Of a stretch of DNA of 64,000 nucleotides, positions 20,428-32,444 are shown piece by piece. This DNA comes from Emticicia sp. C21. GTDB lineage: Bacteria > Bacteroidota > Bacteroidia > Cytophagales > Spirosomataceae. The notes beneath the pieces are model-generated. The model ran no database searches and was not told the DNA's origin. It worked only from the letters and a program-made list of their open reading frames with translations. The first letter of the stretch is position 1. Each line of letters opens with the position of its first letter. Where the stretch lies: positions 248,001-312,000 of the forward strand of contig NZ_QVMT01000002.1 in assembly GCF_003418935.1 (NCBI RefSeq). The letters are read 5' to 3'. Position numbers and translations under genes: made by a program.

Positions 20428-20459
20428 AGTGCCTTCTGAGAAACCAGAAGGCACTTTTT
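20428..20459. terminator. Bidirectional terminator between convergent genes
   Basis: A perfect 11-bp stem (AGTGCCTTCTG / CAGAAGGCACT, loop AGAAAC) followed by TTTT. It fills the 35 bases between the serine hydrolase stop and the stop of the leftward ELWxxDGT gene. Confidence 0.88.
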
Positions 20460-22002
20460 AGTTACAGCCTGCCAGTATTTTCGTCTGAAAAACTGTATTG
20501 CCTTGTGTTCTGAAACCGGGATTGAGTTGTACATATTTCCCTGCCTGATAGGTCACATTCACAGAAGTAGGAATGATATTGGTTCCAGTAGTACTCACAC
20601 TGCTATTTGCTTTCTGATTAGTGGTAATGTTACCGGTAGGAGCGAGTGTAGGCGGACAATTAGAATTTATATCTAATTTCCAGAGTTCTACGTCGAAACC
20701 ATAGCTGGTAGCACGAAAGAAAATTGTTCCATTTACTTCTGTAAAATAAGCAGGAATAGAAGCCATTGATCCACTGGCAATATCGGGCAGTTGTACCGTA
20801 TTATCAGCTATGCCGTCAGTCTGCCATAATTCAGCACCATTGGCAGCGGTAGAAGCCTGAAAGTAAATTTTGGTACCTATGGTTTTAAGTTTAGCCGGAT
20901 CAGAACTGCCATTGCCGGCTCTGATGTCTTTAAATAATACTGTACCATTGGCTGTACCATCAGTTCGCCATAGCTCTATACCATTTATACCATCAGTGGC
21001 AGAAAAATAAAGGTAACTGCCCAAAACGGCTGCTTCATGGGTGCCGCCTCCCTGAAAGCCTGAAACATTGATATCTTTTAATAAAACTGTTCCTGCATTC
21101 GTACCGTCTGACTTCCAGATTTCTACACCATTACCAGCAGTATTAGCTGTAAAATATAAAGCTCCATTAAAAACAATAGGGTCGCTTGGTGCAATCGCAT
21201 TAGATGGGTCATACAAACCTGACTTTACTAATACTGTACCTGCAGATGTGCCATCACTTTTATATAAACCCCAACCGCCATTGTCATTGTTAAAAGCAAA
21301 AAAGTAGAGTTTATTATCAAAACTGATTAATCCGGTTGGACTTGAACTTCCATTTGTATTCAATTCTTTTACTTTTACTGTCCCGCCACTGGTCCCGTTA
21401 CTTTTCCATATTTCTTCATTCAATACATCTGCATCATCATTCGCTACAAAATAGAGAGTCCCATTGACATTGGTTAAATTACGTGGGGAGGAATCGCCTG
21501 ATGGCACAATATCTTTCACCTGGCTTGTTCCACCTATAGTCCCGTTGCTTTTCCATAATTCTCCGTTATTGGCGTAGTAGGCAGTTGTACCAATATTAGT
21601 AATTTCAGAGCCGGAAAAAGTACTTAACTGAATAGTGCCTGCGGTTGTGCCATCTGTTCTGTATAGTTCTCCCAAACCACTATAGGCTGCAAAAAATACA
21701 TAATTGCCAATAGTAATAAATAAAGTAGGGTCTGAACCTTTGAAATACTGGTTATCGTTAGGTTTAATATCTTTTACTAATACAGTTCCGGCAGAAGTTC
21801 CATTACTTTTCCATAATTCGGCCCCTACTGTGCCATCATTTGCTCCAAAAATAAGTGTACCGTTCAGATTAGCCATTCTTGAAGTTTCTCCATAATAAGA
21901 TAAGGAGCCAACAGTGCCATTATAAATATCTTTGACAAGGGTAGGGGTTTGGGCAAATGTTATTTGCGCAAAGAGGCAAAAAGCCGGTAGAATTTTTTTC
22001 AT
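20458..22002 (-). CDS. ELWxxDGT repeat exported protein with C-terminal coathanger-like domain
   Basis: 514 residues with a signal peptide (MKKILPAFCLFAQITFAQ). From about residue 50 to 420 it is built of repeats ending in ELWKSNGTSAGTV or ELWRTDGTANGTV, the ELWxxDGT motif, which likely folds as a beta-propeller of about eight blades. The C-terminal ~70 residues (from NITTNQKANSSVSTTGTN to LNPGFRTQGNTVFQT) resemble the short repeat-stack (3-coathanger) module seen at the ends of secreted Bacteroidota proteins. It has no catalytic motif; surface binding is the likely role. It is divergent from the histidine kinase gene. Confidence 0.85.
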   Translation of the reverse strand: MKKILPAFCLFAQITFAQTPTLVKDIYNGTVGSLSYYGETSRMANLNGTLIFGANDGTVGAELWKSNGTSAGTVLVKDIKPNDNQYFKGSDPTLFITIGNYVFFAAYSGLGELYRTDGTTAGTIQLSTFSGSEITNIGTTAYYANNGELWKSNGTIGGTSQVKDIVPSGDSSPRNLTNVNGTLYFVANDDADVLNEEIWKSNGTSGGTVKVKELNTNGSSSPTGLISFDNKLYFFAFNNDNGGWGLYKSDGTSAGTVLVKSGLYDPSNAIAPSDPIVFNGALYFTANTAGNGVEIWKSDGTNAGTVLLKDINVSGFQGGGTHEAAVLGSYLYFSATDGINGIELWRTDGTANGTVLFKDIRAGNGSSDPAKLKTIGTKIYFQASTAANGAELWQTDGIADNTVQLPDIASGSMASIPAYFTEVNGTIFFRATSYGFDVELWKLDINSNCPPTLAPTGNITTNQKANSSVSTTGTNIIPTSVNVTYQAGKYVQLNPGFRTQGNTVFQTKILAGCN

Positions 22003-24957: not shown

Positions 24958-24973
24958 TACGAAAATTTTCGTA
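24958..24973. promoter_or_regulatory. BlaI-type operator, upstream copy
   Basis: TACGAAAATTTTCGTA is a perfect 16-bp palindrome lying just upstream of the -33 element of the blaI promoter. Its arms TACGAA...TTCGTA recur at 25014-25029. Confidence 0.7.
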
Positions 24974-24979
24974 ATAAAA

Positions 24980-25012
24980 TTTGGAAGTATAATTTCTTTT
25001 CTCGTACATTTG
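24980..25012 (+). promoter_or_regulatory. Promoter of the BlaI/BlaR1-like operon
   Basis: TTTG (24980-24983) and TACATTTG (25005-25012, fitting TAnnTTTG) are separated by 21 bases, the same spacing as in the susC promoter. The predicted start near 25019 falls inside the downstream palindrome, so a repressor bound there would block transcription. Confidence 0.7.
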
Positions 25013-25013
25013 T

Positions 25014-25029
25014 TACGAAATCATTCGTA
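25014..25029. promoter_or_regulatory. BlaI-type operator, downstream copy
   Basis: TACGAA-ATCA-TTCGTA repeats the 6-bp arms and 4-base centre of the upstream palindrome and overlaps the predicted transcription start. Two dimer sites flanking one promoter is the classic arrangement for BlaI/MecI autoregulation. Confidence 0.7.
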
Positions 25030-25081
25030 GATATTCTCCGTCAGGTCAGACTGATACAATTGTTTGATAAAATTTAAAATT

Positions 25082-25468
25082 ATGGAAAAGCAAATAAAAA
25101 TTAAGCCCACCGAGTCTGAATTAGAAATCTTACAGATTTTGTGGGCTTTAGGTAAAGCAACTGTTCGACAGGTAAATGACGAACTCTCCAAAACTAAAGA
25201 GGTAGGCTACACCACTACTCTCAAAATCATGCAGATTATGTTTGAGAAGCAATTAGTGAGCCGTACGGATGAGGGTCGTTATCATGTGTATGAAGCAGCA
25301 GTAGGCGAAGAACCTACGCAGCACATGCTTCTGGACAAATTCATTGACTCCACTTTCCGTGGCTCGGCAACCAGAATGGTGATGCAGGCTTTGGGTAATC
25401 AGCAAGTGAGTAAAGAAGAGTTAGAAGAGATTAAGAAATTAATTGATTCTATCGAAAAAGGACAATGA
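25082..25468 (+). CDS. BlaI/MecI/CopY-family repressor
   Basis: 128 residues from the ATG at 25082; an in-frame TTG six codons earlier is less likely. The N-terminal winged helix (LEILQILWALGKATVRQVNDEL, VGYTTTLKIMQIMFEKQLV, GRYHVYEAA) is diagnostic of the family. The C-terminal helices mediate dimerisation and carry the site usually cut by the partner protease. Such repressors bind palindromes at their own promoter and are removed when the membrane protease BlaR1 senses a signal. The two matching palindromes upstream, and the M56 protease gene 35 bases downstream, support an autoregulated pair. Confidence 0.93.
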   Translation: MEKQIKIKPTESELEILQILWALGKATVRQVNDELSKTKEVGYTTTLKIMQIMFEKQLVSRTDEGRYHVYEAAVGEEPTQHMLLDKFIDSTFRGSATRMVMQALGNQQVSKEELEEIKKLIDSIEKGQ

Positions 25469-25503
25469 CCTATTAAACTAACAATATTATACTTAATTAA
25501 ATT

Positions 25504-27882
25504 ATGAAAAAGCTTTTTGATTTTACTGCCGGAATTCCCGAAAACATTAGTTCAGCATTAGGCTGGACACTTATTCACTCTTTGTGGCAAGGACTTGTCA
25601 TAGTAGTGGCATTTAGTATCTTACGCCATATTTTCAAGACTTCAAGTGCCCGCTACTGGCAAGGTATTGGTGCATTGAGTTTGCAGTTGATTAGTGCCAT
25701 TGTCACTTTCGGAATGGTATATGAGCCTGCCGGAATAGCAGCCACAAAACCAAGATTTACAGCTTTCTTTATCAATAATGCTGTTAATTTAGATGGTGTT
25801 TCAGTATTTGCTCCATCTAAACTAACTTTTATTCAGCAGGCACAACTATTCATTCAGAATAATCTGGATACTTTTGTTTTCTTCTGGTTTATAGGGGCTA
25901 ATCTTCTCCTATTGCGCCTGATTATAGGATTTGTATATGTGCAACAGCTGAAAGTACAGAAAATTACGCCCGTAAGAGATGAGGTATTAGGTATTATGGA
26001 AGAACTACAGGAGAAAATTCAGTTAAATATACCAATCCGTTTATTTGAGTCGGCTAAAGCAGTAGTACCTATGACCATCGGCTGGATAAAACCTATTATT
26101 CTGCTTCCGGCTGGTATAATGTCGGGGCTTAGTATCACCCAATTGGAGGCGGTTCTAGCCCACGAATTAGCGCATATCAAACGCTACGATTACCTGATTA
26201 ATATCTTCCAGAGTTGTGTCGAAATCCTTTTCTTTTACCATCCTGCTACCTGGTTTATCTCGGCACAAGTGCGTGACGAAAGAGAAAACTGCTGTGATGA
26301 TTTTGCAGTAAATATCTGCGGCGACAGACTAGTATTAGCTAAGGCCTTGACACAAGTAGCAACCTTTCAGCATCAGCCACGTTTGGCAATGGCCTTTGGA
26401 GCGAAACGCCAGACTTTTATGGATAGAATCAAGCGCATTGTGGGTATTAATGATGCCAAACCTATGAGCTATGGTAACTGGGCACTTTTTGTAGGTATGA
26501 TATTAATAGTAGCAATGGGTATTGCTTATGGTCAGGATAGAATCGCCAAAAATGACCTTGTTTCAAAAAATACAAATAGTGAGTTTGCTAAACCGGAAGA
26601 GCAATTTGATTTCTACTTTTTTGAAAAAGATAAAAAGAATGTGGGTGTATTTAAAAACAAGAAAGGAGAGATTGTAAAAATCGTGGTAGAGGGTAAAGAA
26701 CTAGCAGGCAAAGATTTTGAATCTATGAAGACATTCGCCACGGAGTTTCTGAAAGCTAAAAACTCAAATTTTGCAATGGTACCGGGTATTGTAGAAGATG
26801 AAATGGATGATGTAAACGAGCAGTTCTTTAGTGAAGAATTTAATACGTCATACACTGCTGATACTTCAAGACTAGATGATGCAGAAAAAGAAATGGAACG
26901 ATTAGGCAGAGAAATGGAGAAGTATGGCCAGGAAATGGAAAAGTATAGCAAGCAGATGGAAGACAAGTACGGCAAGCTAATGGAAAAGCATGGCAAAGAT
27001 ATGGAGCAGGTTTCATTGAAAATGCGTATACCTCAACGGAAGATTGAAAATCTTTCAATAGAGATGCAGGAAGTGAGTTTAGCTATGAGAAAAATAGAAA
27101 ATCAATACCGTGACGTTAGAATGCCTGCTGATGCAGAACAAAAACTGAGAGGCCTGGAGAAAAAAGAGCGTGACCTGGAAAATCAGATGCACATATTTGA
27201 AGAAGAAATGCGCAAAGTGGAGGAGGAGATGGTGCCTATTCAGAGAAAAATGGATCACTTAAACAATCCAATGGATAGTCTGCAAAGATTAATGAGCCGC
27301 TTTGAAAGACCTATGGATAGCCTTGGCCGATTAATGGAAGAGAAAGGAAAGGTAATAGAAAAACTAGCTAAGGAAGAAGAAGCCCGCTTTAAGAAAGAGT
27401 TCAGAGAGTTTGCCGAAATGCTTTTCAAAGAGGGTTTGATTAAAGATAAAAAAGATTTTGAGATTCGTATCAAAGGTGAGAAATTGCTAATCGATTTAGA
27501 GTCTCAATCGCCTGCAACGTATGAAAAAGTGTGGAACTGGATTAATAAAACCTGGGGAAGCCGCATGAGAGGTATCAAAGAAAAAGATTTTACAATAGAG
27601 GCGCATGGAGATAACATTAATTTCAGCACTTACAGCAATGATGGACATATGTATCATCGCTTTGGTGGTATTGTACCTCCTGTACCACCAGTCGCCCCAA
27701 CACCAAGGGCTATTGGAAGACTCGCTGCCATTGCATCAGTTCCAGTTCCTCCGGCGCCAACCGGAGGATATATGAGAACCCCCTCGCCAACAGTTGCACC
27801 TGCACCAGTTTCAGGATATATCAGAACTCCAACACCAGTGGTTGCACCTAGACCAGCCAGAGCGCCCAGAATTTATAACTAA
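25504..27882 (+). CDS. BlaR1-like M56 membrane metallopeptidase with Met-rich coiled-coil extension
   Basis: 792 residues. The first ~340 carry four or so transmembrane helices and the M56 zinc-protease domain with HELAHIKRYDYL (HExxH) between helices; the last helix is WALFVGMILIVAMGIAYG. Instead of the penicillin-binding sensor of BlaR1, the outer part has a linker (about 345-450) and a long coiled coil rich in Met, Glu and Lys with heptad-like repeats (MEKYGQEMEKYSKQMEDKYG). A small globular segment (about 630-720) and a Pro-rich tail (PPVPPVAPTPRA) follow. It probably cleaves the repressor encoded just upstream after an envelope signal. Lack of a beta-lactam-binding domain makes a cell-envelope-stress or metal signal more likely than an antibiotic. 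Confidence 0.88.
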   Translation: MKKLFDFTAGIPENISSALGWTLIHSLWQGLVIVVAFSILRHIFKTSSARYWQGIGALSLQLISAIVTFGMVYEPAGIAATKPRFTAFFINNAVNLDGVSVFAPSKLTFIQQAQLFIQNNLDTFVFFWFIGANLLLLRLIIGFVYVQQLKVQKITPVRDEVLGIMEELQEKIQLNIPIRLFESAKAVVPMTIGWIKPIILLPAGIMSGLSITQLEAVLAHELAHIKRYDYLINIFQSCVEILFFYHPATWFISAQVRDERENCCDDFAVNICGDRLVLAKALTQVATFQHQPRLAMAFGAKRQTFMDRIKRIVGINDAKPMSYGNWALFVGMILIVAMGIAYGQDRIAKNDLVSKNTNSEFAKPEEQFDFYFFEKDKKNVGVFKNKKGEIVKIVVEGKELAGKDFESMKTFATEFLKAKNSNFAMVPGIVEDEMDDVNEQFFSEEFNTSYTADTSRLDDAEKEMERLGREMEKYGQEMEKYSKQMEDKYGKLMEKHGKDMEQVSLKMRIPQRKIENLSIEMQEVSLAMRKIENQYRDVRMPADAEQKLRGLEKKERDLENQMHIFEEEMRKVEEEMVPIQRKMDHLNNPMDSLQRLMSRFERPMDSLGRLMEEKGKVIEKLAKEEEARFKKEFREFAEMLFKEGLIKDKKDFEIRIKGEKLLIDLESQSPATYEKVWNWINKTWGSRMRGIKEKDFTIEAHGDNINFSTYSNDGHMYHRFGGIVPPVPPVAPTPRAIGRLAAIASVPVPPAPTGGYMRTPSPTVAPAPVSGYIRTPTPVVAPRPARAPRIYN

Positions 27883-31074: not shown

Positions 31075-31449
31075 ATGAAAAAGTTAACATCAACCATCGC
31101 AATAGCTTTATTAGCAACTACTCTAGTATTCAACGCCAACGCTGAAGATAAAAAAATGGAGTATAAAAGTAGTAACCTTAATGTAGGTATGTACGAAGCA
31201 GGTCATACAAAGTCAATGAAATTGAATATGACCTTGACAAAAGATAAAGGTGTAGGCGCTACTATCAAATTGATGGACGCAGACGGAAGTATCTTGCACG
31301 AAGAAGTGTTAGGCAAAAAAGTTGAATCATACAAATTGTGTTTTGATATGAGCAACGTGAAAGCCGGTAAATATTATGTAGAGGTTAAAAACGGAGAACG
31401 TATCATTACCAAAGAAATTTTAAAAAGCGCAAGCACTTTAAGTTACTAA
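31075..31449 (+). CDS. Small exported beta-sandwich-like protein, copy 1
   Basis: 124 residues with a classical signal peptide (cut after FNANA). The mature ~100 residues end in a pattern close to the C-terminal sorting/DUF3244-like sandwich of Bacteroidota secreted proteins: a DADGSILHEEV strand pair, CFDMSNVKAGKYYVEVKNG, then ITKEILK. Here that domain is the whole protein rather than a tail. I do not recognise a named family. It is nearly identical in length and very similar in sequence to the next gene, so they arose by tandem duplication. Export is well supported; the function is unknown. Confidence 0.8.
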   Translation: MKKLTSTIAIALLATTLVFNANAEDKKMEYKSSNLNVGMYEAGHTKSMKLNMTLTKDKGVGATIKLMDADGSILHEEVLGKKVESYKLCFDMSNVKAGKYYVEVKNGERIITKEILKSASTLSY

Positions 31450-32048
31450 GCTTCCGACCGTTCATCAAGGTTTATAGCCGATTAACTTAAAATCTGAAAC
31501 ACACAGCTCTAAAAGAGCATCTATTAAATTGAAAAAGCCATTATTTAAAAAGAAAAAATTATGAAAAAGATAACATCAATCATCGCAATCGCGTTATTAG
31601 CGAGTACCGTAGCATTCAATGCTAATGCTGACGACAAAAAAATAGAATATAAAAGCAGCAACCTTAAAGTAGGTATGTACGAAGCAGGTCACACCAATTC
31701 ATTGAAATTGAATATGAACCTGACAAAAGATAAAGGAGTAGCCGCTACCATTAAATTGATGGACGCCGACGGAAGTATTCTACACGAAGAAGTTTTAGGC
31801 AAAAAAGTTGAAGCATACAAATTGTGTTTTGATATGAGCAACGTGAAAGCCGGTAAATACTATGTAGAGGTGAAAAACGGAGACCGCATTATTACTAAAG
31901 AAATCGTAAAAGGTACACATACATTAAGTTACTAAGCCACCGACCGCTTATCAAGTAATATAGCCAGTTAACTAAGAATTTGACACACACAGCTGTTATA
32001 AGCGTCTATTAATTGAAAAAGCAAAGTATTTAACATTTTAACAAAATT
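31450..32048 (+). repeat. Conserved spacers in the small-protein tandem array
   Basis: The two non-coding spacers (31450-31560 and 31936-32048) share blocks: an ACCGACCG-like start just after the stop, TATAGCC, ACACACAGCT, then TCTATTAA and TTGAAAAAGC. In the first, GCTCT-AAA-AGAGC forms a small hairpin (31506-31518). The blocks lie at matching distances from the next ATG, showing the spacers are copies of one unit. Confidence 0.6.
31561..31935 (+). CDS. Small exported beta-sandwich-like protein, copy 2
   Basis: 124 residues, aligning without gaps to the preceding protein. The signal peptide ends FNANA, the core EYKSSNL.VGMYEAGHT is shared, and the segment HEEVLGKKVE.YKLCFDMSN is almost unchanged. 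The tail IITKEIVKGTHTLSY differs most. The 111-base spacer before it resembles the spacer before the third gene, so the duplicated unit includes non-coding DNA. Probably co-transcribed with its neighbours. Function unknown. Confidence 0.8.
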   Translation: MKKITSIIAIALLASTVAFNANADDKKIEYKSSNLKVGMYEAGHTNSLKLNMNLTKDKGVAATIKLMDADGSILHEEVLGKKVEAYKLCFDMSNVKAGKYYVEVKNGDRIITKEIVKGTHTLSY

Positions 32049-32444
32049 ATGATTATGAAAAAGCAATTAAAAAATTTCGCATTAGCTCTAGTAGCAGGTT
32101 TATTCACATTCACAGCTGTTTCAGCAACAGAGTTACCAGATGGTAAAACATTTGACGTAGGCATGTATCGCGTGGTGAACACCATGAAAGTGAACGTGAC
32201 AATTGCTAAAGAACAAGGTAACTGGGTAGAGATTCGTTTGAAAAACGAAAAGAACGAGACGATTTATGTAGAGGTTATCAACAGAAAAGCAACACAATTT
32301 GCAAAGAAGTTTGATTTGCAAGGTTTGGAAGATGGTAAATACCGTTTCGAAATCAGCAATGGTAAAGAAACTATTACCAAAGAAATCAATCTTCAGACAA
32401 AATTGCCATCTGTCTCAGATTATAGAACTGTAGAAGTAAAATAA
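32049..32444 (+). CDS. Small exported beta-sandwich-like protein, copy 3 (divergent)
   Basis: 131 residues (129 if the second ATG at 32055 is used, which matches the MKK starts of copies 1 and 2). The signal peptide ends near AVSA. It keeps the fold pattern of its neighbours (FDVGMYRVVNTMKVNVTI, LEDGKYRFEISNGKETITKEI) but little identity, and has an extra charged strand (EIRLKNEKNETIYVEV) and a C-terminal extension. The last gene of a three-gene tandem array, followed by a strong terminator. Function unknown. Confidence 0.78.
   Translation: MIMKKQLKNFALALVAGLFTFTAVSATELPDGKTFDVGMYRVVNTMKVNVTIAKEQGNWVEIRLKNEKNETIYVEVINRKATQFAKKFDLQGLEDGKYRFEISNGKETITKEINLQTKLPSVSDYRTVEVK

Follow-up and report, generated by a model that had tools for sequence, protein, structure and literature searches.

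BlaR1/BlaI is familiar mainly as a switch for antibiotic resistance, and the same core is found here in many Bacteroidota with other sensors. The window analysed in this work is a stretch of 64,000 nucleotides from Emticicia sp. C21 (RefSeq assembly GCF_003418935.1, contig NZ_QVMT01000002.1, positions 248,001 to 312,000), and the system in question, at 24958-27882 of the window, consists of two palindromic operators, a gene for a BlaI-family repressor and a gene for an M56-family membrane zinc protease. We propose that it is probably an autoregulated one-component proteolytic switch, with an outer-membrane protein (OMP) gene as a second target, that senses the state of the envelope or outer membrane rather than beta-lactams. 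The circuit is well supported by comparison among relatives; the signal is one that we infer. If true, this would be an as yet undescribed means of surveying the envelope, assembled from components of a penicillin-resistance switch; no description of this BlaI/M56 system was found in the open-access literature searched, and the excerpt of PMC12578637, a paper that came up there, deals with neither BlaI nor M56 proteins.

Operators and promoter

The palindrome TACGAA-N4-TTCGTA occurs twice in exact form upstream of the operon (Table 1). Operator 1 ends 6 bp before the TTTG of the -33 box (24980-24983), which is separated by 21 bp from the -7 box TACATTTG in a Bacteroidota-type promoter form, and operator 2 starts one base past the -7 box, over the expected start. 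In the excerpt of PMC9723704 the -7 consensus of a flavobacterium is TAnnTTTG at -12 to -5, and the start is therefore predicted near 25017, inside operator 2. No exact palindrome appeared in 100 dinucleotide-preserving shuffles of the window; at up to three mismatches there is no excess in the window (28 found vs 32.9 expected). A sequence-only reading of this DNA had claimed that two palindromes bracket a promoter, the second lying over the predicted start, and that a repressor and an M56 protease follow, all of which is confirmed by the exact sites, the predicted position of the start and the Pfam assignments of both genes. The repressor would be expected, from the sequence, to bind both palindromes.

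A predicted second target outside the operon

The sequence-only reading had also suggested a genome search for the palindrome, and this revealed a second, unlinked target. Four exact copies are present in the genome of 6,641,932 bases: the two described above and a pair at C1:363020 and C1:363075, which precedes the gene of an 806-amino acid (aa) protein in which a carboxypeptidase-like domain and a plug accompany a PF14905 barrel (1.9e-100). The window and OMP promoters share the same order of elements, i.e. operator, TTTG, TAnnTTTG and operator. Ten one-mismatch palindromes were considered as further targets and rejected, the reversed control giving 42 such matches and the ten lying by scattered genes, some of them inside coding frames.

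An OMP ortholog (76-100% identity) is found in 7 of the 11 same-genus genomes, and in all seven it stands behind double operators, 54 to 56 bp apart, with differing sequence between them. An operator pair is also present in a second genus, before an OMP that is 75% identical over 806 aa (locus L249). The palindrome might control only the blaI-M56 operon, the OMP operators being a copied promoter fragment without present function; the absence of the OMP ortholog from four of the 11 genomes and the position of most double sites elsewhere before blaI would agree with this. Such a fragment is nevertheless very unlikely, since both operators have been kept at every ortholog while the sequence between them differs, and since the pair recurs in the second genus. 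At nine weaker OMP homologs among the matches listed (E of 1e-100 or better, 31-39% identity) no operators were found. In Hymenobacter, a triple operator of its own precedes a PF14905 gene in L123, and in L136 and L140 such a gene comes third, after blaI and M56.

Distribution of the double operator

Within the same family, 222 genomes of 36 genera were compared by means of the double pattern and a reversed-pattern control. The double site was found in 59 genomes and 14 of the 36 genera, and the control gave no match. The 66 double sites, matched by hand to ortholog coordinates, lie beside blaI orthologs in 58 cases, beside OMP orthologs in seven and beside an M56 gene in one. In this last case (L074:2972-4842, G146:C23) the M56 gene is directly behind the double operator with no blaI called between, and it may be controlled by a repressor whose gene lies in another part of the genome. 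Of the 222 genomes, 162 have a blaI homolog (E of 1e-22 or better); among the 60 without one, a single genome (G106, 81% complete) has a double site, before an OMP gene. With the pattern relaxed to TTTGN and a single operator, matches were found in 78 genomes and 21 genera, and the control gave two; 20 of the 26 places new to this pattern were fetched, and in 19 of these the sites are followed by blaI and M56, in one (L249) by an OMP gene.

A scan of GTDB species genomes gave at least 119 double-operator stretches. Titles obtained for 80 of the 119 listed are nearly all of Bacteroidota, together with six metagenome-assembled genomes (MAGs) labelled Aminicenantes (two), Hydrogenedentota, Phycisphaerae, Ignavibacteria or just bacterium. 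By tblastn, 110 of the 119 matches listed have a blaI homolog (40-79% identity), the blaI match begins at most 160 bp from the operators in 106, and three or more exact palindromes are present in 63. In L206, L191, L105 and L207 blaI begins further off, at 193 to 1652 bp. The nine blaI-less loci include the OMP in four (L123, L143, L149, L203), M56 only in L125, and none of the three reference genes in L114, L133, L204 and L205; the sites in L133 and L204 are near the edge of the stretch, so that the gene behind may be out of view, and the double operator of L205 has no explanation among the reference genes. In a redundant set, 175 of 181 loci could be aligned as promoters anchored on operator 2 (L114, L133, L204, L205, L206 and L256, the last with one exact site, were dropped). 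An outer-operator spacing of 56 bp is the commonest (73 of 175), and 86 of the promoters have three operators. Of 395 genomes sampled across the phylum, 5 have exact double sites, among them this genome and one more of its family, and at phylum level the exact form is therefore in the minority.

The repressor

The repressor belongs to PF03965 (93.3 bits against a curated cut-off of 22.6). The open reading frame listing starts it at a TTG at 25064; as most orthologs begin downstream of this TTG, the ATG at 25082 was taken instead. Residues Gly42, Tyr43, Thr44, Thr45, Leu47, Lys48, Gln51, Met53, Lys56 and His68 are fixed in 128 distinct orthologs. The four other BlaI-type proteins of the genome all differ at positions 42, 47, 48 and 51, three of them at 53 and 68, two at 44, one at 43 and none at 45 and 56. 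Such fixation in orthologs and difference in paralogs fits one repressor type reading one operator. The recognition helix and the operator are both fixed, and DNA alone allows the regulon to be predicted. The bond Asn101-Phe102, which we take to be the one cleaved in Staphylococcus aureus BlaI, has as its counterpart Gln102-Ala103 in the segment VMQALG (100-105), 80-98% conserved among the 128 orthologs; the M56 protease would cut the repressor near this point.

The same genome contains four further BlaI/M56 loci (L027, L028, L029 and L030) with other recognition-helix residues; in L027 two M56 genes are present, and the C-termini of their products look TonB-like by eye.

The protease and its periplasmic part

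The protease scores 94 bits with PF05569 (cut-off 31) and contains HExxH. Relatives were collected in a set of 124 M56 proteins (106 once near-copies are removed), of which 72 were aligned, and His220, Glu221, His224, Glu261 and Arg308 are invariant in the alignment. In an AlphaFold 2 (AF2) model (mean predicted local distance difference test score (pLDDT) 82.5, predicted template modelling score 0.50) the core matches BlaR1 8exs (Z 19.0, root-mean-square deviation (rmsd) 4.6, 248 aligned, residues 19-303), and BlaR1 likewise ranks first in Foldseek. The NCBIfam BlaR1 equivalog model NF000326 gives 88.6 bits, below its threshold of 400, with the best stretch at residues 123-351. Beyond the last membrane helix, two long helices (mean pLDDT 88-97 over residues 461-640), which probably form a coiled-coil hairpin, are predicted between two small domains, domain A and the alpha/beta domain B (residues 651-718), and a Pro-rich tail follows.

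The sequence-only reading had placed here a Met/Glu/Lys-rich coiled coil with a Pro-rich tail instead of a beta-lactam sensor domain, and its description agrees well with composition and model: Glu and Lys make up 23% of the residues past the last membrane helix, 25 Met are found in residues 350-792, and a spacing of exactly 7 residues accounts for 13 of the 24 Met-Met intervals. Pfam showed no transpeptidase or beta-lactamase family in the window protein, or among the 25 commonest of the 54 families in 72 relatives, and neither SxxK nor K[ST]G occurs in residues 350-792. As to a class-D beta-lactamase fold, the AF2 secondary structure is that of the two long helices and two small domains, and the BlaR1 match ends at residue 303; absence of this fold from the match list is in itself no exclusion. 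These data support a sensor that lacks a beta-lactam-sensing signature and apparently reads some other signal.

One candidate of the sequence-only reading, a metal bound by the many Met, fared poorly. A metal sensor, in which copper or silver bound by the Met-rich helices would switch on the protease, could draw on the number of Met and on the score of the repressor with the CopY model TIGR02698 (51.1 bits, below the cut-off of 121.95). The 7-residue Met spacing, however, is that of a coiled-coil core, residues 350-792 contain no Cys and 6 His, 41 of the 124 M56 proteins reach 4% Met in the periplasmic part, and no metal transporter was seen among the scanned proteins of the loci. Moreover, the repressor has no Cys and hence lacks the CxC metal motif of CopY described in the excerpt of PMC7253601. 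We consider a metal signal very unlikely.

A signal from the cell wall is better placed and still unlikely. The rod might sense peptidoglycan damage or turnover products, or respond indirectly to beta-lactams, with targets that help the wall or destroy beta-lactams. The protease core and the repressor are of the BlaR1/BlaI kind, and genes of the beta-lactamase family PF00144 are the first gene behind the operators in L114 (7e-25) and the third gene in L177 (7.3e-68) and L262 (1.2e-47); the last two cases led us to raise our estimate for this explanation slightly and to lower that for an envelope or outer-membrane signal by as little. Against it are the lack of transpeptidase and beta-lactamase families and motifs given above and the nature of the recurring separate target, an outer-membrane barrel. 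PF00144 proteins are common in such genomes, and the three cases may be chance.

A sensor module of about 46 residues

Domain B includes a module with the consensus ELxKDGLI...L.INGKxQPxxVxxKY. A profile built from the same M56 set finds it in 65 of the 124 proteins, 24 of them with two copies, and in L127, L145, L172 and L213 two copies flank a helical or Pro-rich part. One copy was detected in the window protein (residues 638-685), and domain A is not matched by the profile. No Pfam family corresponds to the module, and a profile search of PDB sequences gave a best E of 0.049. Known folds were tried and discarded, Foldseek giving nothing at E 0.001 or better and VIA-align 2 giving best matches too weak to interpret (8gup, Z 4.1, rmsd 3.4, 75 aligned; 7uyx, Z 4.1, rmsd 3.9, 74 aligned). 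The module is present in 12 of 61 sampled family genomes, and at least five of nine further module loci read as M56 proteins by their HExxH region. One other protein of the genome carries it (E 3.3e-11), a FecR-type anti-sigma factor that has the module at its C-terminus and is encoded next to an extracytoplasmic function (ECF) sigma gene.

Proposed mechanism and known systems

Without signal, the repressor would occupy the palindromes by the -33 box and over the start, and in relatives often also one between the -33 and -7 boxes, and would thereby shut off both its own repressor-protease operon and the unlinked PF14905 OMP gene at their promoters. The M56 zinc protease would lie at the inner membrane, and its periplasmic part would have the long helices flanked by two small alpha/beta domains, with a flexible tail rich in Pro. 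A change in the envelope or outer membrane, perhaps the presence or assembly state of a barrel protein, would be read by the periplasmic part and render the protease active; repressor cleavage near Gln102-Ala103 would then open both promoters. We favour an envelope or outer-membrane signal because the second target is an outer-membrane barrel gene, and this target likewise lends weight to the earlier suggestion that the signal is perhaps envelope stress. A more specific version, which we hold as possible and tentative, is an outer-membrane surveillance system of Bacteroidota, in which the M56 helical rod, the Pro-rich tail and the module shared with the FecR anti-sigma factor would gauge a barrel or the distance to the outer membrane, with cleavage of a BlaI-type repressor as the output; in function it would correspond to the sigma-E response.

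BlaI/BlaR1 and MecI/MecR1 of staphylococci share with this system a PF03965 repressor, an M56 membrane zinc protease, more than one operator and the fold of the protease core. If our proposal holds, they also share the sequence of signal, protease activation and repressor cleavage, as outlined in the excerpt of PMC7593790. In contrast to them, no sign of a class-D-beta-lactamase-like sensor is seen here, the long helices, the two small alpha/beta domains and the tail standing in its place; the second target is an outer-membrane protein; and the operator is TACGAA-N4-TTCGTA, not the TACA/TGTA type given in the excerpt of PMC7253601. The copper system CopY/CopR, according to the same excerpt (PMC7253601), has a repressor of the same family and two operators. 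The repressor here, unlike CopY, has neither Cys nor a CxC metal site and is paired with a protease. FecR proteins commonly read outer-membrane receptors, and FecI/FecR is similar in that one FecR-type anti-sigma factor of the genome ends in the same module; here M56 would cleave a repressor rather than act on a sigma factor. In the DegS/RseA sigma-E response an inner-membrane protease is activated by the state of outer-membrane proteins, to which the present protease would be analogous if an envelope signal is correct. The proteins are unrelated, however, and PDZ domains were seen only in the third genes of L137 and L141.

Several observations weigh against our main proposal. Both SxxK and K[ST]G occur somewhere in the periplasmic part, context aside, in 14 of the 124 relatives, and the PF00144 genes behind operators in three loci leave room for a cell-wall signal. 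Outside the genus most of the double sites found serve only blaI-M56, and this, with the absence of the OMP ortholog from four of 11 same-genus genomes, indicates that the shared core is autoregulation and that the output varies. The sensor is also variable: the module is in 65 of 124 proteins and in 12 of the 61 genomes sampled from the family, a tail rich in Pro (at least 12 among the last 60 residues) is confined to 51 of 124, and from sequence comparison no single common signal is established across the relatives. Lastly, the OMP leader contains a second TAnnTTTG-like box (L026:5961-5968), 52 bp after the second operator, and the OMP gene may have a further promoter. In several lineages outer-membrane or secreted proteins are likely added targets, and a named sensor module together with a predicted regulon makes outer-membrane monitoring in these bacteria testable.

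Features and neighbouring genes

Table 1. Features of the switch in the window, with one related locus of the same genome
Feature	Position	Strand	Remarks
Operator 1, palindrome TACGAAAATTTTCGTA	24958..24973	none	Exact TACGAA-N4-TTCGTA; kept in related promoters
-33 box TTTG	24980..24983	+	Read from sequence; conserved in 16 aligned same-genus promoters
-7 box TACATTTG	25005..25012	+	Read from sequence; fits consensus TAnnTTTG (excerpt of PMC9723704)
Operator 2, palindrome TACGAAATCATTCGTA	25014..25029	none	Exact; anchor for 175 aligned promoters
BlaI-family repressor, 128 aa	25082..25468	+	PF03965 1.6e-26; best PDB sequence matches BlaI and MecI
Gln102-Ala103 of the repressor	25385..25390	+	Aligned with Asn101-Phe102 of S. 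aureus BlaI
M56 metalloprotease/sensor, 792 aa	25504..27882	+	PF05569 1.3e-26
HELAH zinc motif, residues 220-224	26161..26175	+	HExxH in 124/124 M56 proteins of the set
Putative last membrane helix, residues 323-349	26470..26550	+	AF2 helix; hydrophobic maximum at residues 326-344
Periplasmic domain A, residues 367-430	26602..26793	+	AF2 model
Two long helices, 453-534 and 542-642, putative coiled-coil hairpin	26860..27429	+	AF2; heptad Met spacing
DGLI/INGK-type module in domain B, residues 638-685	27415..27558	+	Profile match 5.2e-21; profile built from the same M56 set
Pro-rich tail, residues 721-792, predicted disordered	27664..27879	+	19 Pro in 72 residues; pLDDT mostly <50
ECF sigma factor and FecR-type anti-sigma factor with module C-terminus	L271:3439-5116 (G000:C23)		

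The operon is preceded by genes for a tetratricopeptide-repeat histidine kinase and a LuxR-type response regulator and followed by an aldo/keto reductase gene on the other strand. The response regulator gene diverges from the operators and starts 283 bp from operator 1, and an effect of the operators on it is conceivable. Of 142 M56 genes encoding more than 400 aa in a redundant set, 50 are followed by a gene on the same strand and 67 by one on the other, and 25 end at an edge. Third genes are candidate operon members; they encode DUF5916 proteins in all five Hymenobacter loci scanned (L104, L106, L124, L135, L183), proteins with a PDZ domain and a type IX secretion system tail in L137 and L141, and otherwise, apart from the PF00144 and PF14905 genes mentioned above, proteins of mixed kind. 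In a Phaeodactylibacter MAG the double operator is directly before the PF00144 gene (L114:4-963), which is cut by the contig end.

Elsewhere in the window, at 31075-32444, three tandem genes encode small proteins with signal-like N-termini (124, 124 and 131 aa), the first two very alike, and genes similar to these in length, the only feature compared, follow the operon in some related loci. Recurring ELW..(D/N)GT..GT-like motifs were noted by eye in repeat proteins encoded at 20458-22002 and at L271:5219-8122.

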